Part shown: one piece after another, positions 1,155-44,921 of the stretch
How the letters are laid out: each line of letters opens with the position of its first letter
How positions within the stretch are numbered: position 1 is the stretch's first letter
DNA from: a virus
Length of the DNA: 47,556 nucleotides
Strand: one strand, 5' to 3'
IMG/VR virus record: IMGVR_UViG_3300031841_004050
Coordinates: 1 to 47,556 of that record
Notes under the pieces: generated by a model
Databases searched by the model: none
What the model saw: only the letters and a program-made list of their open reading frames with translations
What the model was told of the DNA's origin: nothing
Made by a program: the position numbers and the translations under genes

Positions 1155-1163
1155 TAGAATGCC
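1155..1163 (-). promoter_or_regulatory. Late-promoter-like box GGCATTCTA
   Basis: Fits GGHANNCTA on the minus strand and ends 24 nt before the ATG at 1130. With the plus-strand box at 1168 it forms an inverted repeat, so two divergent promoters appear to share one palindrome. Confidence 0.55.
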
Positions 1164-1167
1164 AACT

Positions 1168-1176
1168 GGCATCCTA
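1168..1176 (+). promoter_or_regulatory. Late-promoter-like box GGCATCCTA
   Basis: Fits GGHANNCTA and lies 73 nt before the portal ATG at 1250, one of the longer leaders in this set. The leader contains a TGGCG-GCGAA-CGCCA hairpin near 1218-1232. Confidence 0.55.
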
Positions 1177-1249
1177 TTTAGAAGGGTAGAGCGTGAAGCT
1201 GCCTTTTTAAATTGTCTTGGCGGCGAACGCCATTATCGCAGCGATTGCC

Positions 1250-2839
1250 ATGTCTACTGGAATCAGTCATCCGATCAACGATCCATCCCTGGTTTCTTAT
1301 CATCGTCCAGAACTGGTCAAGATTCTTCCGCAATTAGAGCAAGCAAAAGATTGCTGGCATCTTTTAAACACGGATGGACTAGGTTCAGCTAAAAGCAAGT
1401 ATTTACATAGAGAGCCTGCAGAGCCAGCACCTGCTTATCAGGCAAGATTAGAGCGATCAACTTATGCCCCTATTTTTAGAGATAGCATCAGGGCTTATGC
1501 AGGTCTACTGAGCCGATTCCAGGTCATGGATGCTCCTTCGAGCATGATTGAAAATGATGATAATGTAGATCTTCAGGGATCTAGTATGCAGTCATTCATG
1601 ACACAAGTAGACGAATTAACTTTACGGGATGGCGGTTCATTTGTGATGATCGACATCATGCCTGATAATGGTGTCGAGAACTTTTTTGACCAGATGGCTG
1701 ATGGCAGGCATCCTTATTTGATTTGTGTCAACAGAAGCGATGTCATTAACTGGAATGTAAGTTATGACAGAGGTGTTGAGACTGTTGAACAGGTTACCGT
1801 TCGTCAGCTCAGGAGTATGCCCGATCCAGAAGGAGCCTTTGGCAGCAAGATTGAGCCAATTTATTACGTTTTGACCCCTGGAAAAGTTGAGACATATAAG
1901 GTGGTTAGGTCTGATGCTAGGCGTTGGACTAATCAAAAGATCGAAGAGATCTCTGTTTCTTTGCCCATCGTTCCTCTGATTTGGTATGGAGCAACAACAT
2001 CGCGATTCGCTCAAGGAGATTTGCCGATGGCAGGATTGGCCGATCTCAGTATTCAGCATTTCCAGATGCGCTCTGATTTGGCTGAGTTGTTACATAAGTG
2101 TGCAATGCCAGTACCTGTACGAAAAGGTGCGCCATTGGGTGTGGATGGCAATCCACTTCCGCTAGTCATGGGTCCGAATACGGCGGTTGACCTAAGTTCA
2201 GAAGGTGGTGAATTTAAATTTGCAGAGCCTTCTGGGCAAAGTCTTCAGCGCCACCAGGCTGAGATCCAGCACGTCGAAGAATTGATGGATCGATCTAGTC
2301 TTAATTTCTTATATGGTGCAAATGTTGCGACTGCAACTGAAGCAAGCCTGAAAGCTAGTCAGATAGCATCGAGTGTCTCGGCACTGGTTCGTAATAAGAT
2401 CGCAATGTTTAATGTTGTTATGCGAGTCTGGGCATGGTTTGCCGGCGAGCAAGATCAAATTACAGATGAGTCTGGACTTGCTATCAATGACTCATTGATG
2501 AATCGCCCCTTAGAGGCGAGCGAAATAGCTCAACTGGTCAACTTGTACAACAACGAGCTAATGTCTCGCCAAACCGTACTAGACGAACTGCAGCGTGGTG
2601 GTGTTCTCGATCCTGATTTGATCATTGAAGAAGAGATCGACAGGATCAAGGAAGGTCATAATGAGACCCAGGACCAGATGATGGCTGATGCAGAAAAAGA
2701 GCTTAAGCAAGATCTTACAAGGGCTGAAGAATTTCAGAAAGTAGCGCCACCAGAGTCACAGACAGAATCTGAAAAGACAATTAAACCCACTAAAACCGAA
2801 CAAGAAAAGGTGAAAATGGCTGCAGAACAAGCCAAATAA
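1250..2839 (+). CDS. Portal protein (DUF4055 type)
   Basis: A 529-residue protein. The N-terminus (SHPINDPSLVSYHRPELVK) and the central region resemble phage proteins with DUF4055, which are portal proteins: dodecameric rings at the capsid vertex through which DNA is packaged and ejected. The last 70 residues are highly charged (Glu, Lys, Gln), as in many portals with a C-terminal crown. ATG 1250 is chosen over the upstream in-frame TTG at 1217 because it starts the conserved part. No good Shine-Dalgarno site is visible. A box of the late type lies at 1168. Terminase is not in the window and is expected upstream. Unusually, scaffold and capsid are more than 30 kb downstream. Confidence 0.85.
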   Translation: MSTGISHPINDPSLVSYHRPELVKILPQLEQAKDCWHLLNTDGLGSAKSKYLHREPAEPAPAYQARLERSTYAPIFRDSIRAYAGLLSRFQVMDAPSSMIENDDNVDLQGSSMQSFMTQVDELTLRDGGSFVMIDIMPDNGVENFFDQMADGRHPYLICVNRSDVINWNVSYDRGVETVEQVTVRQLRSMPDPEGAFGSKIEPIYYVLTPGKVETYKVVRSDARRWTNQKIEEISVSLPIVPLIWYGATTSRFAQGDLPMAGLADLSIQHFQMRSDLAELLHKCAMPVPVRKGAPLGVDGNPLPLVMGPNTAVDLSSEGGEFKFAEPSGQSLQRHQAEIQHVEELMDRSSLNFLYGANVATATEASLKASQIASSVSALVRNKIAMFNVVMRVWAWFAGEQDQITDESGLAINDSLMNRPLEASEIAQLVNLYNNELMSRQTVLDELQRGGVLDPDLIIEEEIDRIKEGHNETQDQMMADAEKELKQDLTRAEEFQKVAPPESQTESEKTIKPTKTEQEKVKMAAEQAK

Positions 2840-2869
2840 TTTATACACTTAAGTAACGGCAGATACAAG

Positions 2870-3091
2870 GTGACTATTCTAGCCCGCTTTACATTCAAGG
2901 ATGACTTTGCTTCTGATTTTCTCTTTGAAGAGCAGAAGGTAACTCAGCTCGACTTCGATCGCATTGAAGAAGTTATCGAGTACACGAAAGCTTTTGAAGA
3001 TGCTTTAGAGGACGTGACTGTTTTGTATGACGGCACGACTTACTCAGCTTCAGATTTTAAACTTATGGAGGCCAAGAACATCGACATCTGA
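2870..3091 (+). CDS. Hypothetical protein, 73 aa
   Basis: Acidic protein from a GTG at 2870, 30 bp after the portal stop. It contains FTFKDDFASDFLFEEQKV and an acidic helix, then a short predicted strand region (TVLYDGTTYSAS). The ribosome site is weak. No cysteines, no membrane segment, no family recognised. It may be co-transcribed with the portal gene or be the first of the small plus-strand genes that follow. Confidence 0.55.
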   Translation: MTILARFTFKDDFASDFLFEEQKVTQLDFDRIEEVIEYTKAFEDALEDVTVLYDGTTYSASDFKLMEAKNIDI

Positions 3092-3099
3092 GAGAACTG

Positions 3100-3360
3100 A
3101 TGTCACCAATGACACTGACCGTGGCGGTTAAGGTTGCCATGTGCCCTAAGATGATGGAATTGTTTTTCTCCTTAAGTGACCTGCTGACACCTCTGTCTCC
3201 AGTGCTTACTCACGACAATGACTCCAGGGATTACATCACTTACTTCCTGAGTGTTGATTTCGGTAGATACGACACTGAGGGAGACCAGTACATTGCGGAT
3301 CTATTAAGGTGTAATGCATCCGACATTATGACGACCTATCCTTTAGCAGTACCTACCTGA
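3100..3360 (+). CDS. Hypothetical protein, 86 aa
   Basis: ATG at 3100, nine bases after the preceding stop, with GAGAGAA just upstream. The first 30 residues are hydrophobic (LTVAVKVAMCPKMMELFFSL) and could be a membrane or amphipathic segment. The rest is acidic and ends PLAVPT. No recognised family. It forms part of a tight run of four small genes (2870-3855). Confidence 0.5.
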   Translation: MSPMTLTVAVKVAMCPKMMELFFSLSDLLTPLSPVLTHDNDSRDYITYFLSVDFGRYDTEGDQYIADLLRCNASDIMTTYPLAVPT

Positions 3361-3364
3361 AAAT

Positions 3365-3703
3365 GTGAAGGAAACAGGAAGCATCATCACTTCCCCTGGA
3401 GGCTCTTTCAACTATGTCATCAAAGGTCCTGTTTGCATTCTGTTTGATAGAAACGAGTTGCCGTGGCCGTCTTGCTCATTAAACTGGAAAGGAAAACAAC
3501 CCTCTTGGAACCGTGTTGGTAAAAGGTTTGTTCCAGACCTGGCGGCATCAAGGTGTCATGCTTATTCGGTTTATGGATCTGATCTGTGGGGCAACTCCTG
3601 GGAGCAGGTTTTGATTATTTACAACTATCGACTGAGCACTGAAGAAAAGATGTGGTGGTATTTCAAAGGCCCATCGAGCAAGGCACCTCCCGAACTACCA
3701 TGA
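3365..3703 (+). CDS. Hypothetical protein, 112 aa, tryptophan-rich
   Basis: Best start is GTG at 3365, four bases after the preceding stop. The ATG at 3363 is out of frame and stops at once. The protein has eight tryptophans and many aromatic residues in predicted beta segments (SFNYVIKGPVCILFDRNE; QVLIIYNYRL), suggesting a small globular beta domain. Its TGA (3701-3703) overlaps the next ATG as ATGA. No family recognised. Confidence 0.55.
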   Translation: MKETGSIITSPGGSFNYVIKGPVCILFDRNELPWPSCSLNWKGKQPSWNRVGKRFVPDLAASRCHAYSVYGSDLWGNSWEQVLIIYNYRLSTEEKMWWYFKGPSSKAPPELP

Positions 3704-3855
3704 GCAAACAATCCGAGAGTGACAAGTTTTTGCGCGGCATCAACTGGGATGCTATTTTCCTTAGGAGGCCAGACCTGTCGCCTCCTGGCTACAAGGAGAC
3801 AGTGCAGGCGATGTATCCCGATAAGAACCCAGTCCAGGACAAGGATTTGCGCTAG
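3700..3855 (+). CDS. Small hypothetical protein, 51 aa
   Basis: Starts at ATG 3700 (MSKQSESDKFLRGINWD), overlapping the previous stop by ATGA. This start is preferred over a longer in-frame start at 3652 because of the coupling. Hydrophilic, with prolines near the middle. No family recognised. It ends the four-gene run that begins at 2870. Confidence 0.55.
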   Translation: MSKQSESDKFLRGINWDAIFLRRPDLSPPGYKETVQAMYPDKNPVQDKDLR

Positions 3856-3909
3856 CAGTTCCTTGTGCTATGCTCGTACTGGGGATACCCAATTACCAGG
3901 TGTTAAACC

Positions 3910-4395
3910 ATGAAAAACCAACTAAATAAAAAGTTTGGACGGAGTAACCGCCAATCTAATATGTTCAGCCTTAAAATGCTTAAGGAATATCTTGCAAATG
4001 GAGATGTTCCTGACTGCTATGAAAAAGATGTCTCTGTACATGTTGAATGGAAAGACGACGGTACAAAGGTCTTTCAAATCATTGATTTCGGTCAACCTAT
4101 CTTTGAATTAGCCGAAACGTCTTTAACCATTAACGCGGGTGCCCGGTTCGATGACCAGGGCCGTCCATTCAATTGCACGATGGAGCGTTTGAATGGATTA
4201 CTTGATGCGGCAGGGGTTTATGAGTTAATTCCCGAAGGTGTCAGGATGTTCTTCGCCAAGGAAGACAAGCATTCCCCTTGCAATATCGGATCAAAAGCTC
4301 CTGTTGAGAAGCATGTGCCTTGCTGGCAAGAATCCAGGAAGGTAGTCATTGATCGCGATCCTAATGTTCTGGTTTTCTTAGAGCCAGTCGCTTGA
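3910..4395 (+). CDS. Hypothetical protein, 161 aa
   Basis: Basic N-terminus (MKNQLNKKFGRSNRQSN), then a mixed alpha/beta region (VHVEWKDDGTKVFQIIDFG) and a C-terminal part with two cysteines (HSPCNIGSKA, HVPCWQESRK). No recognised catalytic motif. It stands alone between gaps of 54 and 99 bases. A run TTGCGC followed about 17 bases later by ATGCTC lies upstream and could be a weak sigma-70 type promoter. A strong hairpin follows at 4401. Codon use looks like the neighbours. Confidence 0.7.
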   Translation: MKNQLNKKFGRSNRQSNMFSLKMLKEYLANGDVPDCYEKDVSVHVEWKDDGTKVFQIIDFGQPIFELAETSLTINAGARFDDQGRPFNCTMERLNGLLDAAGVYELIPEGVRMFFAKEDKHSPCNIGSKAPVEKHVPCWQESRKVVIDRDPNVLVFLEPVA

Positions 4396-4400
4396 CATTA

Positions 4401-4704: not shown

Positions 4705-4807
4705 CGGTAATATAACGATAAGCGTTGGATGACGTTTATTCGTCATTGCAGTTCGTTCCATGCCAAGCAACGGGGGCGTGGGCACTGTTCAACCGTGGAG
4801 CAAAACC

Positions 4808-4984
4808 ATGAACTTCTTGAATGTCATTCGAGACAGTCAAGTTAAGCGGAATCGCTTATCTGATGCTCAGTTCCTGATGGCTAAAGCCTATAGGGGAATT
4901 GATTACAGCAAAGTTGAAGCCCGTAATCCAACTGGTAATTATCAGTTGATGTATCGAGGCAGCAAGCACATTGCATCTCGTTGA
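4808..4984 (+). CDS. Small DUF4278-like protein, 58 aa
   Basis: ATG 4808 is preceded by GGAG at good spacing, so it is preferred over the longer in-frame ATG at 4760. The C-terminal half carries two YRG motifs (AYRGIDY and MYRGSKH) about 20 residues apart. This is the pattern of DUF4278, a short domain seen in cyanobacteria and their phages; the match is by eye. Function is unknown. A hairpin at 4729-4746 lies in the leader and a strong terminator follows the gene. Confidence 0.6.
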   Translation: MNFLNVIRDSQVKRNRLSDAQFLMAKAYRGIDYSKVEARNPTGNYQLMYRGSKHIASR

Positions 4985-4997
4985 TCTTATTTTACAA

Positions 4998-5022: not shown

Positions 5023-5057
5023 ATACTGAGGCAAACTATGTCAATCGTTAGTAAAAG

Positions 5058-7880: not shown

Positions 7881-7953
7881 GCCCCTTTAGCTCTCTGGTG
7901 AAAGCACTCTGCTCATAACAGAAGAAAGGTCAGTTCGATCCTGACAAGGGGCA
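7881..7953 (+). tRNA. tRNA with CAU anticodon (Ile2 more likely than Met)
   Basis: 73-nt cloverleaf. The acceptor arms GCCCCTT / AAGGGGC pair fully and A7953 is the discriminator base. The T arm is GTCAG-TTCGATC-CTGAC and the anticodon loop CTCATAA has CAT at 7914-7916. The first pair is G-C, so it is not initiator tRNA. C-G pairs at positions 4 and 5 of the acceptor match E. coli tRNA-Ile2, whose CAU is changed to lysidine-AU by TilS to read AUA. Elongator tRNA-Met remains possible. The D arm is short and slightly irregular. CCA is not encoded. Confidence 0.85.
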
Positions 7954-7957
7954 CTAA

Positions 7958-8040
7958 GCGAACATGGTGGAATCGGTAGACACACCAGACTTAAAATCTG
8001 TTGCCTTCAAGGCGTGAGGGTTCAAGTCCCTCTGTTCGCA
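7958..8040 (+). tRNA. tRNA-Leu (UAA)
   Basis: 83-nt cloverleaf. GCGAACA pairs with TGTTCGC and A8040 is the discriminator. The anticodon loop CTTAAAA gives anticodon TAA. The long variable arm (GCCTTCAAGGC) is typical of leucine tRNA, and the T arm is GAGGG-TTCAAGT-CCCTC. It reads UUA codons. It begins four bases after the CAU tRNA, so the two are made from one transcript. CCA is not encoded. Confidence 0.95.
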
Positions 8041-9631: not shown

Positions 9632-9692
9632 TTTTTTTTATTCTTTTTTTTCTTTTTTTTCTTTTTTCCAGTTATATAATCGTCACAACCCA

Positions 9693-9839
9693 ATCCCAAA
9701 ATCGCAATCGTAATCCCAAAATCGCAATTCATAATCCCAGAATCGCAATCGTAGAATCCCATTTCTGCAATTGTAAATCCCATTTCTGCAATCCAAAATC
9801 CCAAAATCGCAATCGTAAATCCCATTTCTGAAATTATAC
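9693..9839. repeat. Seven tandem 21-bp repeats
   Basis: Seven units starting ATCCCA, of 20, 21, 22, 21, 21, 21 and 21 bp (147 bp total). Two unit types alternate: ATCCCAAAATCGCAATCGTA and ATCCCATTTCTGCAATTGTA. On the minus strand the block stays open and would encode heptads like EMGFTIA. The two off-length units cancel, so the frame is kept. Whether it is translated is unknown. Confidence 0.85.
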
Positions 9840-10235: not shown

Positions 10236-10327
10236 ATAAATGACCCTCATTCTCAATAGTCCAGTAGTACAAGTGTACTACCCTTATTGATAACGATTCT
10301 CATTATCAAATAGTACAGATGTACTAC
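10236..10327. promoter_or_regulatory. Operator array 1: two LexA-like, one or two Fur-like boxes
   Basis: LexA-like palindromes TAGTACAAGTGTACTA (10265-10280) and TAGTACAGATGTACTA (10311-10326) flank a Fur-like 19-mer, GATAACGATTCTCATTATC (10289-10307, 16 of 19 positions of the Fur consensus). A weaker Fur-like half lies at 10236-10254. On the minus strand this array is upstream of the 21-bp repeat block. Confidence 0.7.
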
Positions 10328-10396
10328 TCAACAATTGAGGCAAATTGTCTCCTTAAATGTTATTTAGTCTAAAACAGTTAGCTATATCTTAGGCAC

Positions 10397-11856: not shown

Positions 11857-11973
11857 GGTAATGATAATCATTCTCAAAGTAGTACATTTGTACTATCGGT
11901 GATAATGAGAATCGTTTTCAATAAGCATGAGAATGAGAATCGCTCTCAATAAGGCGGTAGTACATTTGTACTA
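11857..11973. promoter_or_regulatory. Operator array 2: two LexA-like, three Fur-like boxes
   Basis: Fur-like: GGTAATGATAATCATTCTC (11857-11875, 17 of 19), GATAATGAGAATCGTTTTC (11901-11919), GAGAATGAGAATCGCTCTC (11929-11947). LexA-like: TAGTACATTTGTACTA at 11880-11895 and 11958-11973. It lies upstream of minus-strand operon 1 and just past the terminator of operon 2. Confidence 0.75.
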
Positions 11974-11984
11974 CAAAAAGTAAC

Positions 11985-12425: not shown

Positions 12426-12476
12426 GGTGAAAAAAGTTTTTTTTGAATAGATTGCCGATTTTTTATTTTATTTTTT

Positions 12477-14851: not shown

Positions 14852-15029
14852 GGCGATTCATGGTTATTTTAGCTTGTTCTTCAGAGAACAGGTGATAGAT
14901 ACGTGCTAACAATTGAATTGTGGCTTCTTTTTGCTTACAACGTACGGCTAATAATAAGGCGAAGGAATATTTGAGTACTGTTTTGGAGTCAACTGGAGGT
15001 AAGGAGTCCTTCATATTGACTGATGGCAT
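14799..15029 (-). CDS. Hypothetical protein, 76 aa, minus strand
   Basis: The start at 15029 (MPSVNMKDSLPPVDSKTVLK) is chosen because a GGCACACTA box ends 15 nt before it. Upstream in-frame starts (15059, 15110) would overlap the neck gene. Helical, with KYSFALLLAVRCKQKEATIQ and QLLARIYHLFSEEQA. No family recognised. It converges on gene 14627 and overlaps it by 53 bp. Confidence 0.55.
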   Translation of the reverse strand: MPSVNMKDSLPPVDSKTVLKYSFALLLAVRCKQKEATIQLLARIYHLFSEEQAKITMNRLIYLLEPAERDWMKSLA

Positions 15030-15033
15030 ACTA
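15025..15033 (+). promoter_or_regulatory. Late-promoter-like box GGCATACTA
   Basis: Ends 24 nt before ATG 15058. Overlaps the start codon of the minus-strand gene 14799-15029. Confidence 0.6.
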
Positions 15034-15044: not shown

Positions 15045-15053
15045 TAGTGTGCC
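15045..15053 (-). promoter_or_regulatory. Late-promoter-like box GGCACACTA (minus strand)
   Basis: Ends 15 nt before the minus-strand ATG at 15029. It faces the plus-strand box at 15025, so the two transcripts would overlap at their 5' ends. Confidence 0.5.
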
Positions 15054-15503: not shown

Positions 15504-15683
15504 ATGTCTAATGAAGAGAAGAAGCCAACAGAAGGGATTCTGGATGGCATTAACATGAAGGTCAGTAATGTATGGTGTAAGGGATGTAATGATTATAGGC
15601 CAGTTAATAGTAACTTTGCTAAGTATCTAACAAATGGTATTGAGCAATGTTCTTTATGTCGGGATAAATCACTGGAAAACTAG
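15504..15683 (+). CDS. Small zinc-ribbon protein, 59 aa
   Basis: ATG at 15504 to TAG at 15683. Two CxxC pairs (C25/C28 in WCKGCND, C49/C52 in CSLCRD) 20 residues apart make a small zinc ribbon, likely binding nucleic acid or protein. The next gene's late-type box overlaps its stop codon. No specific family recognised. Confidence 0.6.
   Translation: MSNEEKKPTEGILDGINMKVSNVWCKGCNDYRPVNSNFAKYLTNGIEQCSLCRDKSLEN
15674..15682 (+). promoter_or_regulatory. Late-promoter-like box GGAAAACTA
   Basis: Ends 20 nt before ATG 15703. Confidence 0.6.
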
Positions 15684-18540: not shown

Positions 18541-18549
18541 GGAATACTA
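18541..18549 (+). promoter_or_regulatory. Late-promoter-like box GGAATACTA
   Basis: Ends 22 nt before ATG 18572. Confidence 0.6.
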
Positions 18550-19030: not shown

Positions 19031-19039
19031 GGAAGCATA
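19031..19039 (+). promoter_or_regulatory. Late-promoter-like box GGAAGCATA
   Basis: A variant with A at position 7, 58 nt before the major tail protein start. The leader between them folds into the hairpin at 19075. Confidence 0.45.
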
Positions 19040-19074
19040 GATTAACGGGCCGAGAAGGTCCGAGTACCTTCCTG

Positions 19075-19092
19075 CGGGCTTAGCCCGTTTTT
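19075..19092 (+). terminator. Terminator-like hairpin in the major tail leader
   Basis: CGGGC-TTA-GCCCG followed by five T, ending five bases before ATG 19098. AACGGGC at 19044-19050 can pair with GCCCGTT at 19083-19089 instead, which would break this hairpin. It may end the upstream transcript, attenuate, or stabilise the major tail message. Confidence 0.65.
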
Positions 19093-19097
19093 CATCA

Positions 19098-20043: not shown

Positions 20044-20052
20044 GGAAGCCTA
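20044..20052 (+). promoter_or_regulatory. Late-promoter-like box GGAAGCCTA
   Basis: Ends 22 nt before GTG 20075. A second CCTAG follows at once. Confidence 0.55.
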
Positions 20053-23292: not shown

Positions 23293-23301
23293 GGAATCCT
23301 T
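23293..23301 (+). promoter_or_regulatory. Late-promoter-like box GGAATCCTT
   Basis: Deviates at the last base. Ends 19 nt before ATG 23321. Confidence 0.5.
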
Positions 23302-23668: not shown

Positions 23669-23677
23669 GGCAAACTA
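23669..23677 (+). promoter_or_regulatory. Late-promoter-like box GGCAAACTA
   Basis: Ends 20 nt before ATG 23698. Confidence 0.6.
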
Positions 23678-24103: not shown

Positions 24104-26428
24104 ATGTCGTATCTTGTTAACCAGTCCAGGGTTCATAGCCTGACAATTAATGGCACAGATTATACAGATGCATTGATTGAGTGGACTGCATCTGATTCTT
24201 CTGCAAATAAGCAAGGACTGATTACAACTCAAGGGCAGTTGACCTTGGGCTATTATTCTGGTGGACCTAGCGTATCCGATTATGATCGGAACGATTTTCT
24301 AAGGGGGCATGAAGTCATCTTAACGATGACAACTCCCAATAGCACCACCTACAGGCACCCTCGCGGTTTACTGTATGTTGTTTCTACAAATTACGACATT
24401 GAGTCTTATACGCTGATTGTTACGCTTGGCTGTAAAATAGCGCTAGCAAAGCTTACTGACGACAACACCAATCTTCTGCCTTTAGCTCCCATCCCGCTAG
24501 AATCGACTCAAGAAGAGATCTCCAATATTGATGCTTCTTTCGCTCAGGCTGGTAAATATCTTTATCAAGACAACACAGGGGCACTTGTCTCTGGTCTATT
24601 CTTTGATGGCGACAGTTACACAGGAACAGCTACTGGGAGCTGGACATCCATTCTTGGCGTTACAGCTATTTCATCTAGTATGCTAGCCGCTGGTAGTCCT
24701 GTTCCTGACAACATCAAGTTAACATATCAAGTTCCAGAAAATGTAATTGGCTCTGATCAACTGGGTCGAGTAGATACCACTGAAACGACTTCGTATTATT
24801 TCCTGGATTATCCTGCCGTTATTTTTACAAGAACAAATACAGACGCAAGTGCAGCAAACCCAAACGGAACCATTGGAAATAATACAGAACTAAATCAAGA
24901 TACTCAAGCCGCAGGTAACGCCGCGAATCCCTGCGGTAATGCACAGGACCAAAGTGGAGATGAAAGCGGCGCATGTAGCGATGCGTATGAATTAACGCAA
25001 CAGCCTATAATCGTGCCAGCTAAAAGAATTGAACTTCAAAAAAGTTATTACAGCGGTCCTGGTGCTCAACAATCTCTTAGCACGAGCGAAATAAGGGGGC
25101 CAGAACTTGAAGCGAATCAGTCGTACTTTGCTGATCGATATGCTTTTTGTGCTGGAACTTTCTTGACGGCTTGTAATCGCATTAACTGCGAACTGAAGGG
25201 CCTAGACAATATACTCCTCTCCAAAAGATCTTCAAGAAATATTTTTGGTGAAGCGGGAGAAGTTGTTAGGCAGGTTGACGAGAATTATTCCCATTCATAT
25301 ACCATCGCACAAGCAGAAGATTGGCGTTCAGGGACCACTGATAAAGGCATTCCTAAAGATTTCACTTACTTGCCAAGTTTCCTGTTTAGGGACACCGTAA
25401 CAGTAACCGATTACTACAAAGAAGGTAATGCAAACGTACAGGATGCGACTACCTGGACAACAATAGCAGCAAGAGGGGCTCCTGGGCTTATATTTAAAGG
25501 AGCATCCGATCTTGATGCTTACCGAGGCATCAAAACAAGAGTAGTTCGCAAGTCTTCTACGACTGCAACTACTGAATTAGCACCTGATATTGCCAATTCA
25601 CCAAACACGCAGACGATTGAACAAGAGACAGAGATACCCTTATTTACAGGACGTTATGTAACCCCTCCAACGGAGTCAGGTCCATACGTACTAGAAGAAT
25701 CAATGCCTCTTCCCTTGCTTTATTCTACACAAGCCGAGATCGACGACGCATTAGGAGTCTACAGTAACTATTTAGAACGCTTCGTCAAGGGTGATGCCTT
25801 TGGTCTCCAGATTACTGAAGGTCTTCGCGAGGATATTGGACAGAATTGGCATCCAGGGATGCCATTTAGATTTTATGATCCTAAGGAAGGTAAGATCTTA
25901 GCGATGAGAATGGATGCCGTTCAATGGGGTGTTACTCCAGAAGAGAGTGCATTGGTTACGAATGGTATTTGGATAGGTGATTCAAACGGCTCTATTGCTG
26001 TTCCAGATAACGTGCTTGGCAATAGCACTATTGATATTACCGTTGCCGGAACAGATCCAACAAGCACCGATCCTACCGGTAGCACGACTGGACCAAGTAA
26101 CCCACCAGGTACTGTTAATTATCCAAGTGTTACGGGCGAGACTAGCGTAGATAGCGGCAGCTTTGCCTTTGTTGTCCAGGTAAACTTCTCAGTTCAGAGT
26201 AGCTTGTTTACCTACTCAGAGAATGGAGTAAGGAATATATGGGATGAAGATGGAGAAGCCCCGATAAAGACAACGTTCGTCGTCTATTGTCAAGGCTTAG
26301 AGGCTACGACGGGATCACTTCTTTCACCGAATGGAGATGGAAGCATTCCGTTCGAGAATAATGGTTCTTTGGTAACCGCTGGTGGAACAGTTGTTGATCC
26401 TGATTTGTTTGATCCGTTAGTCCCATAG
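24104..26428 (+). CDS. Large tail-tip / baseplate hub candidate, 774 aa
   Basis: Starts MSYLVNQSRVHSLTINGTDY. The N-terminal 130 residues resemble a beta-sandwich hub domain (LTLGYYSGGPSVSDYDRNDF, then YTLIVTLGCKIALAKLT). The central part holds a Cys-containing loop (NPCGNAQDQSGDESGACSDA). The C-terminal third has GLREDIGQNWHPGMPFRFYD, as in hub proteins, then a Pro/Ser/Thr-rich linker (TDPTSTDPTGSTTGPSNPPG) and a beta domain. Predicted to close the tail tip. Exact family not confirmed. Confidence 0.7.
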   Translation: MSYLVNQSRVHSLTINGTDYTDALIEWTASDSSANKQGLITTQGQLTLGYYSGGPSVSDYDRNDFLRGHEVILTMTTPNSTTYRHPRGLLYVVSTNYDIESYTLIVTLGCKIALAKLTDDNTNLLPLAPIPLESTQEEISNIDASFAQAGKYLYQDNTGALVSGLFFDGDSYTGTATGSWTSILGVTAISSSMLAAGSPVPDNIKLTYQVPENVIGSDQLGRVDTTETTSYYFLDYPAVIFTRTNTDASAANPNGTIGNNTELNQDTQAAGNAANPCGNAQDQSGDESGACSDAYELTQQPIIVPAKRIELQKSYYSGPGAQQSLSTSEIRGPELEANQSYFADRYAFCAGTFLTACNRINCELKGLDNILLSKRSSRNIFGEAGEVVRQVDENYSHSYTIAQAEDWRSGTTDKGIPKDFTYLPSFLFRDTVTVTDYYKEGNANVQDATTWTTIAARGAPGLIFKGASDLDAYRGIKTRVVRKSSTTATTELAPDIANSPNTQTIEQETEIPLFTGRYVTPPTESGPYVLEESMPLPLLYSTQAEIDDALGVYSNYLERFVKGDAFGLQITEGLREDIGQNWHPGMPFRFYDPKEGKILAMRMDAVQWGVTPEESALVTNGIWIGDSNGSIAVPDNVLGNSTIDITVAGTDPTSTDPTGSTTGPSNPPGTVNYPSVTGETSVDSGSFAFVVQVNFSVQSSLFTYSENGVRNIWDEDGEAPIKTTFVVYCQGLEATTGSLLSPNGDGSIPFENNGSLVTAGGTVVDPDLFDPLVP

Positions 26429-26436
26429 GAAAGCTA
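26428..26436 (+). promoter_or_regulatory. Late-promoter-like box GGAAAGCTA
   Basis: Starts on the last base of the preceding stop codon and ends 21 nt before ATG 26458. Confidence 0.55.
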
Positions 26437-28125: not shown

Positions 28126-28134
28126 GGTAATCTA
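28126..28134 (+). promoter_or_regulatory. Late-promoter-like box GGTAATCTA
   Basis: Ends 22 nt before ATG 28157. Confidence 0.6.
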
Positions 28135-28156: not shown

Positions 28157-29809
28157 ATGGTCTGGGATAAGTGGGGAATCAGAAAAGAGGAATACGATAG
28201 GATCAAGAAATACAGAAGGACGAAAGAAAGCGAAGGTCTTTTTAACCGCACACCTAGCGCAGATACGTTATTCAAGGCAAATACGGATTCGCAATCTTGG
28301 AATAGTTTTTCTTTTACATCTGGAAACTTTGTTCCTTCTCCAGCAGATATCAAAGCGCAGCTCGACGAAGAGCAGACTGGGATTGGTAGTTGCATAAGCA
28401 ATAAACAATGTCCAACAGGTTACGCCTGCATCGACGGTAAGTGTGTAAAAATTTACACGCGAGATAACACTACATGGGGAACATGCGGAGATGAACGCTT
28501 AGATTTTCCCTGTAAAGAGCGAGGGCCGAAAACCACAAATGAATGCAGTACCAGTCGTCCTGGTCCCGGAGATTGCCAAGATTCAGACTGTGGATCAGGG
28601 CCAAAATGTTGCAGACAGAATGCTGATGGCAGCGTCAGTTGTTACTGCGGTTCTTGCGAAGATGTTGAATCGGGAGTATGCAGTGTCTATTGTGACACTA
28701 CTTTTAAACTATTCGGCACAGTTTCAGCGGGTTGTTCCAAATCTGGAGGAGTAGGTGTTTGTGGCGGAAATATATGCACCGAATGTTCTGAATGTGAAGT
28801 GGATGTTTTTGGAGGAGCCCCAAAATGTCAAAAATACGAACAGGGTAATCCTTCGGCTCCTTGCTGGTGCAATGAATGCAATAATCCATGTGAACGATGT
28901 CAGACCGATCCTAGCGCTTCTAATTTTAACAATTGCGTTTTTGATGCTACCAATTGTAACACCTGTTGTTCTGTAACTAATCCAGAATGCGAATGCGGAT
29001 CACTTTTAGCACTTGGAGGGACTATTAGCGCTTGTACTCCATACTTGGGCCGACCATGCATGGATGTGCTATACGAAAAGATAGGAGCGTTATGCGCGGA
29101 GAAATGCGAAAAAGAACCTGATCCTTGCGCTGCGACGGGTAGCGATAAATACTGTGTAAATGGCAGTGCTCCTATTGATCCTGCGACTAACCCAGAGGGA
29201 CCTGCTGGTTATACGTGCCCTTCAGGGCAGGTGTGTGAATACACTGGCTTTTTAGAGGGCGGAGGAAAAACTTGTTATTTATTCAAAACATGGACGCTGG
29301 ATGAAATACCAAGCAAATGCGTGGAGACTGGCTGCAATTGCAATAACGATTGCGGCGATTGTAAAATCTGCAATGGAAACGGCGAGTGTGAGTCGGACCC
29401 AGCTTGCGCTAATGTTATCTGGGATCTTTGGTTTAGGTATAACGGAGATACCAAAAGCGGAAATGCTAACTGTGGAGTAGATGGCGATCAACCGCCAGGT
29501 GTATGGGAACGCCATAATCCTGCCGTTAGCGCATTTACTGAAGATATTGCCAGGTATGGGACGGAAACTTTTACAACTTATCATCAAGGATTGTTTCAAG
29601 ATCCTGTTCTTGCCCCAGGCGCAAACCTTTGCGGTATTATCTGCCCTGGTTCTCTAACAACTGAATATTTGACGCTTGACGGTGCAACTCATCGTTTTAC
29701 GGGCTATGCAGATGGTTGTCGGCGCGTAAGTGTTGGTAACAATAGTCTGGCATACGTAGGTTCATTTGAGTATGAATGGGTTCTAAGTGGTACTGGCCCG
29801 CCGTCGTAG
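28157..29809 (+). CDS. Very cysteine-rich virion-region protein, 550 aa
   Basis: Residues about 75-430 hold nearly all of some 54 cysteines, about one residue in ten overall, in spacings such as CQDSDCGSGPKCC, CTECSECEVD and CNCNNDCGDCKIC. The look is that of EGF-like, disulfide-knotted extracellular proteins. The first 75 residues are charged and cysteine-free; the last 120 form a beta-rich globular end (WDLWFRYNGDTKSGN). There is no signal peptide. It lies among fibre genes with its own late-type box, so it is probably a virion appendage. Metal binding is an alternative to disulfides. Confidence 0.75.
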   Translation: MVWDKWGIRKEEYDRIKKYRRTKESEGLFNRTPSADTLFKANTDSQSWNSFSFTSGNFVPSPADIKAQLDEEQTGIGSCISNKQCPTGYACIDGKCVKIYTRDNTTWGTCGDERLDFPCKERGPKTTNECSTSRPGPGDCQDSDCGSGPKCCRQNADGSVSCYCGSCEDVESGVCSVYCDTTFKLFGTVSAGCSKSGGVGVCGGNICTECSECEVDVFGGAPKCQKYEQGNPSAPCWCNECNNPCERCQTDPSASNFNNCVFDATNCNTCCSVTNPECECGSLLALGGTISACTPYLGRPCMDVLYEKIGALCAEKCEKEPDPCAATGSDKYCVNGSAPIDPATNPEGPAGYTCPSGQVCEYTGFLEGGGKTCYLFKTWTLDEIPSKCVETGCNCNNDCGDCKICNGNGECESDPACANVIWDLWFRYNGDTKSGNANCGVDGDQPPGVWERHNPAVSAFTEDIARYGTETFTTYHQGLFQDPVLAPGANLCGIICPGSLTTEYLTLDGATHRFTGYADGCRRVSVGNNSLAYVGSFEYEWVLSGTGPPS

Positions 29810-29817
29810 GCAGACTA
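29809..29817 (+). promoter_or_regulatory. Late-promoter-like box GGCAGACTA
   Basis: Begins on the last base of the preceding stop codon and ends 19 nt before ATG 29837. Confidence 0.55.
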
Positions 29818-31225: not shown

Positions 31226-31234
31226 GGCATCCTA
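31226..31234 (+). promoter_or_regulatory. Late-promoter-like box GGCATCCTA
   Basis: Ends 19 nt before ATG 31254. Confidence 0.65.
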
Positions 31235-33277: not shown

Positions 33278-33286
33278 GGTATCCTA
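33278..33286 (+). promoter_or_regulatory. Late-promoter-like box GGTATCCTA
   Basis: Ends 19 nt before ATG 33306. Confidence 0.65.
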
Positions 33287-33844: not shown

Positions 33845-33853
33845 GGAATACTA
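33845..33853 (+). promoter_or_regulatory. Late-promoter-like box GGAATACTA
   Basis: 36 nt before the scaffold ATG at 33890. Confidence 0.6.
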
Positions 33854-33889
33854 GCGGCGTAATTCTCACAGGGGTGATCCCTGTTTTAT

Positions 33890-34621: not shown

Positions 34622-34642
34622 AAGGGGCTCAGCCCCTTTTTT
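34622..34642 (+). terminator. Rho-independent terminator after the scaffold gene
   Basis: AAGGGGC-TCA-GCCCCTT stem continuing into six T in all. It separates scaffold and capsid messages. Confidence 0.85.
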
Positions 34643-34650: not shown

Positions 34651-34659
34651 GGAATAATA
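34651..34659 (+). promoter_or_regulatory. Late-promoter-like box GGAATAATA
   Basis: A variant with A at position 7, 121 nt before the capsid ATG, nine bases after the scaffold terminator. Confidence 0.5.
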
Positions 34660-34667
34660 CTTTTAGA

Positions 34668-34715
34668 GATACCCCGAAAGGATTTTCCGAGACGGAAGGT
34701 GCTGGAAGGGGTGTC
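34668..34715 (+). promoter_or_regulatory. Structured leader of the capsid gene
   Basis: GATACCCC (34668-34675) can pair with GGGGTGTC (34708-34715), enclosing a TTCCG-AGA-CGGAA hairpin (34685-34697). It lies near the 5' end of the likely capsid transcript and may protect the message or tune translation. Confidence 0.4.
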
Positions 34716-34780
34716 AAGTTTATGTGGGCGAGAGGCTCAGCATAGACCACACTCCTTCAACCTTCTTTAATTACCTTATC

Positions 34781-35688: not shown

Positions 35689-35712
35689 AAGGCTCCTTCG
35701 GGGGCCTTTTTT
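35689..35712 (+). terminator. Rho-independent terminator after the capsid gene
   Basis: AAGGCTCC-TTCG-GGGGCCTT with a UUCG-type tetraloop and a T run. Confidence 0.9.
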
Positions 35713-35716: not shown

Positions 35717-35725
35717 GGTATTCTA
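35717..35725 (+). promoter_or_regulatory. Late-promoter-like box GGTATTCTA
   Basis: 66 nt before ATG 35792. The leader contains ATAATCT / AGATTAT arms (35737-35743, 35754-35760). Confidence 0.6.
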
Positions 35726-36551: not shown

Positions 36552-36560
36552 GGCAATCTA
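36552..36560 (+). promoter_or_regulatory. Late-promoter-like box GGCAATCTA
   Basis: Ends 23 nt before ATG 36584. Its last base is the first base of the terminator stem. Confidence 0.6.
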
Positions 36561-36583
36561 AGGGGCATAACGCCCCTTTTTTT
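36560..36583 (+). terminator. Rho-independent terminator after the head pair
   Basis: AAGGGGC-ATAAC-GCCCCTT and seven T. The last T touches the ATG of the next gene. Confidence 0.88.
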
Positions 36584-36856
36584 ATGGCTTTATTGGAAAA
36601 ACGCCCTACCTACTTCGTGAAAGATGGTGATCGCAGGGCTGCTTATTATACAATTACCGCCCGAGAATTAAAGGATCAAGGATATGTTGAAGAAGGTGAA
36701 AAAGCCGTTCCCGCAAATCTGGATAAGCCCCTGCCTGAAATTCCCGTTGTTGCAGGCGGCGATGCCTTCGAAGCCACAGAAGCGGAAGAAGAGGTAGAGG
36801 TTAAACCCGATATTCCCGCACCCCGAAGGTCTAGACGCAAGAGGAAAGATGATTAA
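36584..36856 (+). CDS. Hypothetical protein, 90 aa
   Basis: ATG 36584 begins right at the end of the terminator T run, with no Shine-Dalgarno site. N-terminus basic (MALLEKRPTYFVKDGDRRAA), middle Pro-rich and acidic, end strongly basic (PRRSRRKRKDD). Looks like a small adaptor with two charged tails. If transcription starts a few bases after the box at 36552, the message has a very short leader holding only the 3' half of the hairpin. Confidence 0.65.
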   Translation: MALLEKRPTYFVKDGDRRAAYYTITARELKDQGYVEEGEKAVPANLDKPLPEIPVVAGGDAFEATEAEEEVEVKPDIPAPRRSRRKRKDD

Positions 36857-36861
36857 GTAAA

Positions 36862-36870
36862 GGCACCCTA
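36862..36870 (+). promoter_or_regulatory. Late-promoter-like box GGCACCCTA
   Basis: Ends 19 nt before ATG 36890 and is also the 5' arm of the terminator at 36862-36886. Confidence 0.5.
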
Positions 36871-36886
36871 TTGTGGGTGCTTTTTT
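36862..36886 (+). terminator. Rho-independent terminator after gene 36584
   Basis: GCACCC-TATTGT-GGGTGC and six T, three bases before the next ATG. Confidence 0.85.
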
Positions 36887-36889
36887 CTT

Positions 36890-37063
36890 ATGGAAATAAC
36901 TTATCGAAATGGACCTCGTTATATCGACGGGGAAAACATTGATATTGACGTTAATGCAGAGCATCCGTCAGTTGTAGAAAGAGATGTTGCTGATCCTGTA
37001 ACTGGTTTGCACGGGATAGGTTATCAACCTGGCCAGAAAAATTTAGACGGAAGCGACTTATGA
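36890..37063 (+). CDS. Small hypothetical protein, 57 aa
   Basis: MEITYRNGPRYIDGENIDID start; acidic, Gly-rich and probably beta-structured at the start and flexible at the end (GQKNLDGSDL). The stop overlaps the next ATG as ATGA. No Shine-Dalgarno site; the ATG lies three bases after a terminator T run. No family recognised. Confidence 0.6.
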   Translation: MEITYRNGPRYIDGENIDIDVNAEHPSVVERDVADPVTGLHGIGYQPGQKNLDGSDL

Positions 37064-37236
37064 CTTCCAAAAAGGATTCCGAGAAAAAGCTAAAACAGAC
37101 TGTCACTCTGTTTGCTTACCTTTCTTTCCTAGGAGGATTGCTGGTCTTTGGCGGTCTCTTTATTACGGTTCAAGAATCGGGAATACTAAATAAGTCACCT
37201 CATTTACCTTGCCAGAGTATATCATTGTTACGGTAA
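37060..37236 (+). CDS. Small membrane protein, 58 aa (holin candidate)
   Basis: ATG 37060 by ATGA overlap. Basic N-terminus (MTSKKDSEKKLKQ), one transmembrane helix at about 15-37 (LFAYLSFLGGLLVFGGLFIT), short periplasmic tail. The layout fits a small holin, antiholin or spanin-like protein. No lysis gene was recognised in the window to confirm it. It overlaps the next gene by 28 bases. Confidence 0.55.
   Translation: MTSKKDSEKKLKQTVTLFAYLSFLGGLLVFGGLFITVQESGILNKSPHLPCQSISLLR
37180..37188 (+). promoter_or_regulatory. Late-promoter-like box GGAATACTA inside gene 37060
   Basis: Ends 20 nt before TTG 37209, the spacing seen elsewhere. This supports TTG 37209 as the true start of the next gene. 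Confidence 0.5.
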
Positions 37237-38723: not shown

Positions 38724-38732
38724 TAGGCTGCC
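38724..38732 (-). promoter_or_regulatory. Late-promoter-like box GGCAGCCTA (minus strand)
   Basis: Ends 23 nt before the minus-strand ATG at 38700. Diverges from the box at 38737 with only four bases between them. Confidence 0.55.
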
Positions 38733-38736
38733 TATC

Positions 38737-38745
38737 GGAAAACTA
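38737..38745 (+). promoter_or_regulatory. Late-promoter-like box GGAAAACTA
   Basis: Ends 18 nt before ATG 38764. Confidence 0.6.
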
Positions 38746-41767: not shown

Positions 41768-41768
41768 A

Positions 41769-41777
41769 GGTATCCTA
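41769..41777 (+). promoter_or_regulatory. Late-promoter-like box GGTATCCTA
   Basis: Ends 18 nt before ATG 41796. Confidence 0.6.
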
Positions 41778-41795
41778 AAACGAATTAGTTAAGCT

Positions 41796-44243
41796 ATGAC
41801 ACTCCCTTCTCCTCGTAATTCTATTCGTCCTCTGAGGGGATTGCTGGCTACCCTGCAGGCTGATCTTGCTGGTATCGGTGAAGGTGAAATTGTATATGCA
41901 ACCGATGAAAATCGTTTTTATGTAAAGGAGTCTGGGATTCTTACGGTTGCTAGTGCAACTGCAGCTCAAGGTGTTTTGGCTGATACTGCTACTCAGCCTG
42001 GTGATAATGTTTCCGATCTCACTAATGATGCTGGTTATATCACGTTAGCCGATGTTACAACTACTGCAGATAAGTTTGTTTACGTTAACTCTGTTGACGG
42101 AAACGATGGCACAGGTGCTATCGACGATCCCGGCAAGCCTTTTCTTACTATTGCCGCAGCAATTGCCGCCATCCCAGGCCCCGGACATGAAATCAGAGTC
42201 TCTCCTGGTACATATCAAGAGAATAATCCCTTAGTTATTCCTACTGGTTGCATTCTGACTTCGAGCCATGGCACGATGGGCTGGCTTGGTGATGTCGTAA
42301 CCATTGAGCCACTTGTCAACACATCTAATCTGATCGAACTTTCCAGTGCGTCTTCCGTGGAAGGCGTTACTTTGGTTGGACCTAGTAGCGCAGGTGCTGC
42401 AGCGGTTAGCTATGCAGGAGGAAATGCCACAACTGCATCTACTACGAATGTCGGCCTTAAAGGGCAGACTGGTGGCCAGGGCGATGGCATCATGGTCCAG
42501 TCAACAGGCAGCGGCAAAATCATCTCGTTTGAAATTCGGTTCAAAGGAGGAGAATTCAAGAATCTGATGGGCGTCAAGGGTGGAATTCTTGCCACTGAGT
42601 CTGTTCATGTGCCAAACGTCGCTGGCACTAACTCAATCGAATCTGTTTTCTATCAAGACAACACTGTTAACGCAGGTCTTAGCAGGTTACAGGGTCAAGG
42701 TTGCAACTCAGGTAATAGCAATGTCACCAACATCTATCGCAATAACGGAGGAACAGGTGTATTTTTCAGCTTAAATGCTTTCAATGCTAGTAATGGTATT
42801 TTGCTTGAGAATGATTCTTACAATGTAAACATCTATTCCGGCTTGATTGATACTTCTACATCTTTAACGACTGACCCTTCAATAACTGGAGCCTCTGGCA
42901 AGCTTTATATCAACGCTAGTATCAATACCAACTTTAACATAGGCAACCCTGTCTGGTACACGTCGGACCACTTCTTGGTCTATGCCAATGACAAAAATGA
43001 TAAAGACGCCTATCAGACTGCTATTCAGTTGCAAGGTGGCGATCTAATCATTGGAAACGCAAACCAAGCACATGGGGCATTCTTTGGTAATGGTACAGCT
43101 ATTAGCAGGAGTGGCTCTGAATATGTTTTTGCTACAAGTGGAAATACGAGCACGACTGAAGGCAGTGGCCTAGTTGATCTGTCTACCAACGCATTAGACA
43201 AAGAAGAAGCAACTACATTTACTTTTAACGCGATTGCGGCAGACGAGGCTATCTATTTCTGTACTACTCGTAGAGATTCTGCCAACAACTTGCTAAAGCA
43301 TTACGGCTATCGGACTGGCCATTTAACTGGCGACAGTAGAGATGGGGAATACGTTTTTGAGATTTGGACTGGTGCAGCCTGGACTGCCATCAATATTCAG
43401 TCTGTAAACGTGGATCAAGGCTATAATTACGCTACTGACGTGATGTGGCGCGGTGGTGATACACATGAGTACATAATTTTTGGAATTGATGCCAATACTT
43501 CATGGACATTAAAAACTATCAATTCGGTTAACGCATACTGGTCTCGCATTAGAATAGTCACGGCTCCGACTTCTTTGCCGACTCTTTACCATCTCCAAGG
43601 CTTGCCTAATGGAGGCTTTCAGATTACTAAGTCTGGTAAACAGGTATTTTTTGGTACTGCTCAATTTAGAAGGTCAATTCAATCTGCTACAAGCGGCTTA
43701 AGTTCTACTGGCGGTGTATTAACTGGCACCCAGCAAGTCGGTACAGGAGCTGATCAATACACCCATTCCTTGACGAGTGGCACATTGGATGGTGCTGGTG
43801 ATCGGATTTACTGGAACATTCGCATTCCAGAGGGTACTTGTAGTGCTTTTCCTTATTATATTGATGTTGCTTATTCTATACAGACAGGCTTTAATGCTGT
43901 AACCAAGCCAACGCTTGGATTCACTTTCCATGCGGCAGAAGTTGCAGGGATGTTTGTGGCCGATCCCAATGGCGGAGTAGCTCCAGTTGCACGAACTAAT
44001 GTCGATACATCTACAATTACGACGAACAATCCTCAAAGGCAACAATCCTTGATTCCAGGTGACGCTGCCGACACGATTTACAACATATCCTTTGGACCAT
44101 TCTATGCTTCAAATTATTATGAAGGTGATTTGATTACCATGGCCTTAGATTACGTAGATGACGGATCTGCAAATGCGGATATTACTTTCTGGGATATCTC
44201 CTTGCGTTCGTTCCGCTGGACGGAGGGTGAGCGTCAAGCCTAA
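41796..44243 (+). CDS. Tail spike with beta-helix, 815 aa
   Basis: N-terminal adaptor (SPRNSIRPLRGLLATLQADL, GEIVYATDENRFYVKESG), the TNDAGYI motif, then at about 101-140 the start of a right-handed beta-helix (DGNDGTGAIDDPGKPFLTIA, GPGHEIRVSPGTYQEN), as in pectate-lyase-like spikes. The C-terminal half is beta-rich. A role in binding or cutting host surface polysaccharide is likely; catalytic residues cannot be named by eye. Confidence 0.8.
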   Translation: MTLPSPRNSIRPLRGLLATLQADLAGIGEGEIVYATDENRFYVKESGILTVASATAAQGVLADTATQPGDNVSDLTNDAGYITLADVTTTADKFVYVNSVDGNDGTGAIDDPGKPFLTIAAAIAAIPGPGHEIRVSPGTYQENNPLVIPTGCILTSSHGTMGWLGDVVTIEPLVNTSNLIELSSASSVEGVTLVGPSSAGAAAVSYAGGNATTASTTNVGLKGQTGGQGDGIMVQSTGSGKIISFEIRFKGGEFKNLMGVKGGILATESVHVPNVAGTNSIESVFYQDNTVNAGLSRLQGQGCNSGNSNVTNIYRNNGGTGVFFSLNAFNASNGILLENDSYNVNIYSGLIDTSTSLTTDPSITGASGKLYINASINTNFNIGNPVWYTSDHFLVYANDKNDKDAYQTAIQLQGGDLIIGNANQAHGAFFGNGTAISRSGSEYVFATSGNTSTTEGSGLVDLSTNALDKEEATTFTFNAIAADEAIYFCTTRRDSANNLLKHYGYRTGHLTGDSRDGEYVFEIWTGAAWTAINIQSVNVDQGYNYATDVMWRGGDTHEYIIFGIDANTSWTLKTINSVNAYWSRIRIVTAPTSLPTLYHLQGLPNGGFQITKSGKQVFFGTAQFRRSIQSATSGLSSTGGVLTGTQQVGTGADQYTHSLTSGTLDGAGDRIYWNIRIPEGTCSAFPYYIDVAYSIQTGFNAVTKPTLGFTFHAAEVAGMFVADPNGGVAPVARTNVDTSTITTNNPQRQQSLIPGDAADTIYNISFGPFYASNYYEGDLITMALDYVDDGSANADITFWDISLRSFRWTEGERQA

Positions 44244-44905
44244 TGCCATTAAGTTCTCCCAGGAAAATTATTAAGCCACTTCGCGGCACTTATGCCGCAT
44301 TGTTGGCCAATGTCGCTGACATTCAGGATGGAGAAATCTGTTATGCCATTGACCAGGATCAGCATTATCAAAACGAAAGCGGAACGCTGGTGGCAGTCGC
44401 TGCCACAAAGTCTCAAGGAGCCCTTGCTGATACTGCTATTCAGCCTGCGGATAACGTATCTACTCTTACCAATGATGCCGGTTATTTGCCAGTTAATCTG
44501 TCGAATGTTCAGGCGAATGATTTGGTCCAGTTCAATGGTGCTGAATGGGTTAATACTGCTGCTCCAGCAGCAAACATATCTGGCAATAGTATTGATGATT
44601 TGGCTGATGTTGACACATCAACCGCTAGCCCTACTATAAATCAAGCACTTGTATGGGATACAAGTAATTGGGTTCCTGGTGATGTTGCCACTCTTGATGC
44701 AGTCAGACTAGATGCTGAGAATAAAACTTTTAGTTACACCAATGGAGACCTGACTTCTATTAGCGGTACAGAGGTTCAAATTGCTATAACATACAACCAG
44801 GATGGAACAGTTAATACTGTAGCGAAAACAAGCAACGGAACAACAGTGACCAAGACTTTTGCTTATAGTGCCGGTGGAGACATAACATCGATCACGGTAA
44901 GCTGA
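44243..44905 (+). CDS. Tail fibre with shared adaptor, 220 aa
   Basis: ATG 44243 by TAATG overlap. N-terminus (SPRKIIKPLRGTYAALLANV, GEICYAIDQDQHYQNE) is the adaptor shared with genes 41796 and 41327. A LADVDTSTASPTINQALVWD motif and a C-terminal YNQDGTVNTVAKTSNGTT beta part follow. Shorter than its neighbours; a simple fibre or an alternative tip. Confidence 0.75.
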   Translation: MPLSSPRKIIKPLRGTYAALLANVADIQDGEICYAIDQDQHYQNESGTLVAVAATKSQGALADTAIQPADNVSTLTNDAGYLPVNLSNVQANDLVQFNGAEWVNTAAPAANISGNSIDDLADVDTSTASPTINQALVWDTSNWVPGDVATLDAVRLDAENKTFSYTNGDLTSISGTEVQIAITYNQDGTVNTVAKTSNGTTVTKTFAYSAGGDITSITVS

Positions 44906-44912
44906 GCTAACT

Positions 44913-44921
44913 GGAAAACTA
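44913..44921 (+). promoter_or_regulatory. Late-promoter-like box GGAAAACTA
   Basis: Ends 23 nt before ATG 44945, which supports this start over the in-frame TTG at 44939. Confidence 0.6.

Follow-up and report, generated by a model that had tools for sequence, protein, structure and literature searches.

To our knowledge, a late sigma factor equipped with a hook for the replication clamp has so far been known only from T4-type viruses. Here we examine a 47,556-nucleotide stretch of viral DNA (IMG/VR record IMGVR_UViG_3300031841_004050, positions 1 to 47,556; the whole of it is called the window below) and a 9-bp box, GGHANNCTA (H being A, C or T), that stands upstream of its late genes, and we compare them with the closest described systems. 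Late transcription in T4 involves gp55, gp33 and the gp45 clamp and uses TATAAATA promoters (PMC2988020, PMC7892883), and in gp55 a variable linker leads to a conserved C-terminal clamp epitope (PMC2988020). The promoter of the cyanobacterial sigma factor SigF described in Synechocystis (pilA1) has TAGGC at -32 and GGTAA at -12 (PMC2758279). A group 3 sigma factor, ORF003, is encoded by cyanophage P-SS2 (Sullivan et al. 2009, PMC2784084); the authors propose for it a regulon that they do not specify, whose sequences it would read, and predict sigma-70 promoters only, with BPROM; the text consulted describes neither the box nor a late regulon.

The system described here shares with that of T4 a single -10-type element at late genes with no -35 element, and a phage sigma factor in which region 2 is present, region 4 cannot be recognised, and a variable linker gives way to a conserved hydrophobic tail at the extreme C-terminus. 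It differs in that the sigma factor derives from the SigF/SigB class, its best match being NF005644 and not gp55; in that the box does not conform to the T4 consensus; in that the tail is of the bacterial Q..LF type; and in that a search of eight related genomes for PF00712, the one beta-clamp family used, gave no phage clamp gene, the controls being positive. No partner like gp33, a small diverged protein, turned up in searches none of which was aimed at it. It is likely that a T4-like logic has been assembled here from different parts. Cyanobacterial SigF (group 3) is the best family match of the phage sigma, and the -10 side of its promoter likewise opens with GG, followed by an A; the box, however, lacks a -35 element and carries an additional, nearly invariant CTA, while the phage sigma falls far under the family cut-off and has no recognised region 4. 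The P-SS2 ORF003 sigma is a homologue of this factor, whose gene adjoins terL.

The window and its relatives

The window, an IMG/VR contig, represents part of the genome of an S-CBS2-like siphovirus of marine Synechococcus. Its capsid protein shares 82-84% identity with the capsid proteins of Synechococcus phages S-CBS2, S-CRES2 and S-CRES3 and 51% with that of cyanophage PSS2, and relatives are encoded at about 100 more IMG/VR loci. PHROGs identified the portal, tail tube, tape measure, scaffold, capsid and other head proteins; the region at 28.2-31.2 kb gave no match to named phages in a DNA-level search, while protein and IMG/VR searches did succeed. All the evidence below is sequence-based. 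Gene starts come from a simple custom caller, and many of them match annotated starts in the isolates; motif discovery used a home-made expectation-maximisation (EM) procedure.

A box shortly upstream of most late genes

The extreme feature of the box is its position and not its raw count. As a string, GGHANNMTA (M being A or C) is only mildly enriched, the window having 47 exact matches and its shuffles 32.4 +/- 5.1, and many in-gene matches to the pattern are background. Eighteen exact boxes, however, end 15-24 nucleotides (nt) 5' of a called start where 0.34 would be expected under uniform placement (Poisson P 3e-25); in shuffled upstream regions of the window the number of boxes at this distance averaged 0.27 and never exceeded 3, and four genomes each have a positional P of about 1e-24 or below.

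Supplied with no motif, EM on 60-bp upstream regions returned GGcAa.CTA as the top motif of the window (log-likelihood ratio 69.5 against 30-35 in shuffled sequence), GGaAtcCTA in S-CBS2, GGaA.aCTA in S-CRES2, GGcAtACTA in S-CRES3 and a close variant, ggaAc.Ct., in PSS2, the ratios over all five being 67-92 against 29-40 in shuffles. A matrix built from three other phages matched the gaps of the window at 2.14 sites per kb-strand and its coding sequence at 0.59, and matrices trained on other phages put box density in gaps at 3.5 to 7.6 times that in coding sequence. The earlier note on this DNA, whose author had collected sites by reading gaps, named selection bias as possible. The raw pattern, being but mildly above shuffles, could be taken to favour such an artefact, which is refuted by unsupervised discovery, by the matrices from other phages and by the positional P values in four genomes.

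Among nine further IMG/VR records, motif discovery recovered GGHANNCTA or CGGAANCCT in seven; the latter is the shifted consensus of two larger and more distant carriers of the sigma (G001 and G002). The motif barely exceeds shuffles in G004, and the early-only fragment G008, in which no box was found, is uninformative. Box-N15-24-ATG occurs 203 times in 27 IMG/VR records, nearly all of them sigma-bearing, against 39 occurrences of the reversed pattern. The counts are 21, 19, 17 and 9 in S-CBS2, S-CRES2, S-CRES3 and PSS2 against 2, 4, 3 and 4 in the reversed controls (66 vs 13 in total), and there is no enrichment in S-CBS1, S-CBS4, S-PM2 and S-CBS3 (0, 3, 13 and 0 against 2, 3, 9 and 0; 16 vs 14). 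The capsid gene, at least, has genuine GGHANNATA variants, which relatives have kept. A search of the open literature found no earlier mention of the motif, the genome description of S-CBS2 (Huang et al. 2012) being outside its scope.

The list of 26 sites in the earlier note proved essentially right, and two further well-placed boxes were added. Its single site with a last-base mismatch (23293) and its five long leaders, of the portal, tail tube, scaffold, capsid and first head protein, were recovered as described. The region at 2.8-14.6 kb, which had been called free of boxes, holds two well-placed ones, at 5030-5038 and 12448-12456. Boxes of the window include the following.

1155..1163, minus strand: box GGCATTCTA, 24 nt before ATG 1130 of the minus-strand open reading frame 807-1130; divergent from 1168 with a 4 bp gap
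1168..1176, plus strand: box GGCATCCTA, 40 nt before the portal start 1217
5030..5038, plus strand: box GGCAAACTA, 19 nt before ATG 5058, directly 3' of a terminator-like hairpin
12448..12456, minus strand: box GGCAATCTA, 22 nt before the minus-strand start 12425
15025..15033, plus strand: box GGCATACTA, 24 nt before 15058; inverted repeat with 15045-15053 (minus strand)
15674..15682, plus strand: box GGAAAACTA, 20 nt before 15703
18541..18549, plus strand: box GGAATACTA, 22 nt before 18572
19031..19039, plus strand: box GGAAGCATA, 58 nt before the tail tube start 19098; GNGAN-loop hairpin in the leader
20044..20052, plus strand: box GGAAGCCTA, 22 nt before the tape measure start 20075
23293..23301, plus strand: box with last-base mismatch GGAATCCTT, 19 nt before 23321
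23669..23677, plus strand: box GGCAAACTA, 20 nt before 23698
26428..26436, plus strand: box GGAAAGCTA, 21 nt before 26458
28126..28134, plus strand: box GGTAATCTA, 22 nt before 28157
29809..29817, plus strand: box GGCAGACTA, 19 nt before 29837
31226..31234, plus strand: box GGCATCCTA, 19 nt before 31254
33278..33286, plus strand: box GGTATCCTA, 19 nt before 33306
33845..33853, plus strand: box GGAATACTA, 36 nt before the scaffold start 33890; leader hairpin ACAGGG(GTGAT)CCCTGT
34651..34659, plus strand: box GGAATAATA, 121 nt before the major capsid start 34781; terminator 34622-34638 upstream; distance similar at most homologous loci
35717..35725, plus strand: box GGTATTCTA, 66 nt before 35792 (first head protein); terminator 35689-35708 upstream
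36552..36560, plus strand: box GGCAATCTA, 23 nt before 36584; its last base opens the terminator 36560-36578
36862..36870, plus strand: box GGCACCCTA, 19 nt before 36890; forms the 5' arm of the terminator 36859-36884
37180..37188, plus strand: box GGAATACTA, 20 nt before 37209
38724..38732, minus strand: box GGCAGCCTA, 23 nt before the minus-strand start 38700; divergent from 38737 with a 4 bp gap
38737..38745, plus strand: box GGAAAACTA, 18 nt before 38764
41769..41777, plus strand: box GGTATCCTA, 18 nt before 41796
44913..44921, plus strand: box GGAAAACTA, 17 nt before TTG 44939

The segment 15025-15053 is a near-perfect inverted repeat with one box per arm, and convergent boxes 11 bp apart are found here as well as in S-CRES3 and G011.

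With some exceptions, the box tracks the class of the gene more than its location. In the window it precedes 15 of 18 gapped genes at 20-45 kb and one of 15 at 5-15 kb; in S-CRES2 it precedes 12 of 17 at 35-55 kb, where the structural genes lie, and one of 24 in the first 30 kb, which holds replication and small genes. That single early-region box of S-CRES2 belongs to terS, a packaging gene, which also has a box in S-CBS2, S-CRES3 and the contig L138 and sits among early genes in all four. The ribonucleotide reductase gene is preceded by a box in S-CBS2 and S-CRES3.

Probable single-element promoters

What kind of signal could the box be? From its sequence context we hold it highly probable that the boxes are late promoters. 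Strong intrinsic terminators stand just before or overlap boxes at 34622, 35689, 36560 and 36859. Twelve divergent box pairs, 0-14 bp apart and often 4 bp, were found in the window and its relatives, and such spacing leaves no free -35 region between the two boxes; the distance is exactly 4 bp in four cases (window 1155-1176 and 38724-38745; S-CBS2 7374/7387 and 36107/36120). The capsid box is held about 120-140 nt upstream in most homologues. Conservation of the capsid leader begins at T-A-G, the A of which is box position 14 (first G = 0), 5 nt past the box, and the pooled boxes favour a purine at the same position. The onset of conservation and the purine preference together point to a predicted start site, which would put the box at about -14 to -6; RNA would start at this purine, and the leader of most genes would measure about 12-19 nt. 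At 36552-36584 and 36859-36890 box and terminator overlap, and read-through RNA would end where the new RNA begins, inside the hairpin.

A signal acting in the RNA, for ribosome binding or processing, could also be expected on the coding strand, and most boxes do lie there, 17-24 nt before starts. We regard this as very improbable, since the distance is too great for ribosome binding, the capsid box stands 121-140 nt away at a conserved position, and the box abuts or overlaps terminators while leader conservation starts past it.

The absence of a -35 partner, noted earlier for the window, was upheld on 129 pooled boxes, upstream of which no such element was found, whether fixed or floating; the sole floating upstream motif, GGCCCt, resembles intrinsic terminators. 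The -35 elements of SigF, sigma-B and sigma-F type were rejected as candidates for lack of enrichment, and TAGGC of SigF at about -32 occurs at 24 of the 129 boxes against 30 in shuffled sequence. Sigma-70 promoters were likewise rejected for the late region, where TTGACA/TATAAT pairs number 31 against 29.4 expected and 27 against 25.2. The late-gene bias, the adjacent terminators, the divergent boxes, the conserved position with long leaders and the missing -35 element all fit a single-element (-10-type) promoter of late genes, so that the promoter reading proposed in the earlier note is supported at the level of sequence.

The box might instead be read by a phage DNA-binding activator or by a host sigma factor, which would make phage sigmas unnecessary for late genes: a short box could be occupied by a DNA-binding protein, and divergent pairs such as 1155/1168 can look palindromic. 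This appears improbable given that single boxes face the gene in one fixed orientation and lack a partner element, that the box is not enriched in Synechococcus phages without the TerL-adjacent sigma, and that sigma-70 sites in the late region are at chance.

A SigF-like sigma factor as candidate reader

A phage factor encoded outside the window had been suggested as a possible reader, and a strong candidate for it is the gene of a SigF-like sigma factor located some 5.3-6.0 kb to the left on a near-strain contig. In our judgement the box is probably read by this sigma, encoded beside terL. In S-CBS2, S-CRES2, S-CRES3, PSS2 and four long IMG/VR genomes alike, there are exactly two sigma proteins with a region 2, the first mostly RpoD-like and located by ssb in the four isolates, the second adjoining terL and matching cyanobacterial SigF (NF005644) best. 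All relatives for which a complete or near-complete genome was examined have the terL-adjacent sigma. No homologue of it was found in S-CBS1, S-CBS3, S-CBS4 and S-PM2; two of these, S-CBS1 and S-CBS3, have another sigma that matches SigF.

The left flank was assembled by tiling. Contig L138 shares its sample with L008, which is 99.5% identical to the window, and overlaps the left end of L008 over 1,387 bp at 94% identity, which places terS (with box GGAAAACTA 19 nt upstream), terL, the sigma gene and primase beyond the left end of the window, with the sigma gene spanning about -6.0 to -5.3 kb. The terS-terL-sigma-primase cluster thus begins with a box, and a late sigma would in this way amplify its own expression.

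Against the full SigF family the phage sigma scores 72-83 bits where the cut-off is 261, the match ends at profile position 155-199 of 258, and family matching fades past about residue 150. Region 2 (PF04542) was detected in all 42 homologues, in some of them under the curated cut-off; region 4 (PF04545, Sigma70_r4) was found in none of the eight genomes searched, and one of the 42 homologues gave a weak r4_2 match (E 0.16). An AlphaFold model (predicted local distance difference test, pLDDT, 77; predicted template modelling score, pTM, 0.39) has helices up to residue 213 and none after it. A fold search with this model returned mostly sigma factors and RNA polymerase complexes at weak E-values and high root-mean-square deviation; floppy domains in the model account for the weak scores, which give no verdict on a diverged region 4. 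We infer that the -35-reading region has been lost or has decayed, which would explain a single-element promoter. The GG-H-A start of the box resembles the SigF -12 element GGTAA, and host core RNA polymerase carrying the phage sigma would probably open the DNA at GGHANNCTA.

The late promoters could alternatively be read by the other phage sigma, the RpoD-like protein by ssb, with the SigF-like sigma serving other genes. Both sigmas occur in all eight genomes searched, and their co-occurrence does not discriminate between them. We nevertheless consider this assignment unlikely: a sigma of mostly SigA/RpoD class is expected to read TANNNT with a -35 element (PMC2758279), the box opens with GG as the SigF -12 element does, and the SigF-like gene shares a box-headed cluster with terS and terL.

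A search for the sigma in cellular genomes gave one contig only: L196 (DGOV01000074.1), 82 kb long and placed in a 'Proteobacteria' metagenome-assembled genome, encodes the sigma at 64% identity and is probably a misbinned cyanophage.

The clamp-binding-like tail

The C-terminus of the sigma is an exact Q..LF (QGSLF, QASLF, QPSLF and others) in 38 of 45 unique homologues, and two more have the motif near the end. Mean pairwise identity is 0.81 over the last five residues and 0.50 over the preceding 30. The bacterial clamp-binding consensus is QL(S/D)LF (PMC9690074). Retention of QGSLF for DNA reasons was rejected, as serine uses at least five codons, leucine and glycine all of theirs, and all three stops occur. 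In S-CBS2 the sigma gene gp077 (L090:10420-10567) is annotated as 206 amino acids, cut short by an apparent one-base shift in a run of C (CCCCC); the following frame reads ...LQGSLF, and tblastn links both pieces.

We lean slightly towards the view that the tail tethers the sigma to the clamp. Since no phage clamp gene was found, the target would be host DnaN, and in most of the family the tail would bind the sliding clamp of the host and couple late transcription to replication. A single polypeptide might then do the work of both gp55 and gp33 of T4.

Leader hairpins and other elements

Hairpins with a GNGAN pentaloop occur in the leaders of capsid (34660-34780), scaffold (33854-33889) and tail tube (19040-19097), and in relatives in that of the portal. 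Of 126 long leaders that follow a box, 25 have the loop; most permuted control loops score 1-2, and the overlapping GAG.. scores 9. Two GNGAN hairpins lie inside or beside a GGGUG/CACCC stem in the capsid leader, with many compensatory changes in 39 relatives; this leader has no match in Rfam. The hairpin is possibly a translational operator or a boxB-like site.

The window further contains a glutamine-II riboswitch at 4720-4782 on the plus strand (43.7 bits, cut-off 33), upstream of the small open reading frame 4808-4984, and genes for tRNA-Met(CAT) and tRNA-Leu(TAA) at 7881-8040. Near-tandem repeats of the AATCCCAAAATCGCAAT type precede AT-rich DNA at about 9690-9830, and repeated palindromes like AGTACANNTGTACT, together with Fur-like GATAATGAGAATCG stretches, occur at about 10260-10330 and 11870-11980, on the side where the small minus-strand genes lie.

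Discussion

We assign a probability of roughly three in four to the explanation as a whole, in which the boxes would be single-element late promoters, read by a SigF-like sigma whose tail, in most of the family, probably binds the host clamp. Several observations weigh against it. The SigF -35 element TAGGC is missing at the boxes. Every relative has a second, RpoD-like sigma, and co-occurrence alone cannot assign the reader. The helices at residues 164-213 of the modelled sigma could be a diverged region 4. The position of the sigma gene is taken from the near strain L138 and not from the window's own molecule, and the promoter function, the start site and the choice between sigmas have all been deduced from sequence. 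PSS2-like sigmas and those of L145 and L148 lack the Q..LF tail, yet boxes are present in PSS2 and in G003, the genome behind L148, so the tail would not be universally needed.

The finding would supply a regulon for the group 3 sigma of P-SS2, whose target was left open in 2009 (PMC2784084). For widespread phages of marine Synechococcus and Prochlorococcus it also yields a map of the late genes, which extends to metagenomic contigs whose genes are unnamed. We see even chances that these widespread cyanobacterial siphoviruses have a second, independently evolved replication-coupled late system, in which a SigF-derived sigma without a working -35 domain would be tethered by Q..LF to host DnaN. 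If the clamp tail works, clamp-coupled late transcription would have evolved at least twice, here with a clamp borrowed from the host.

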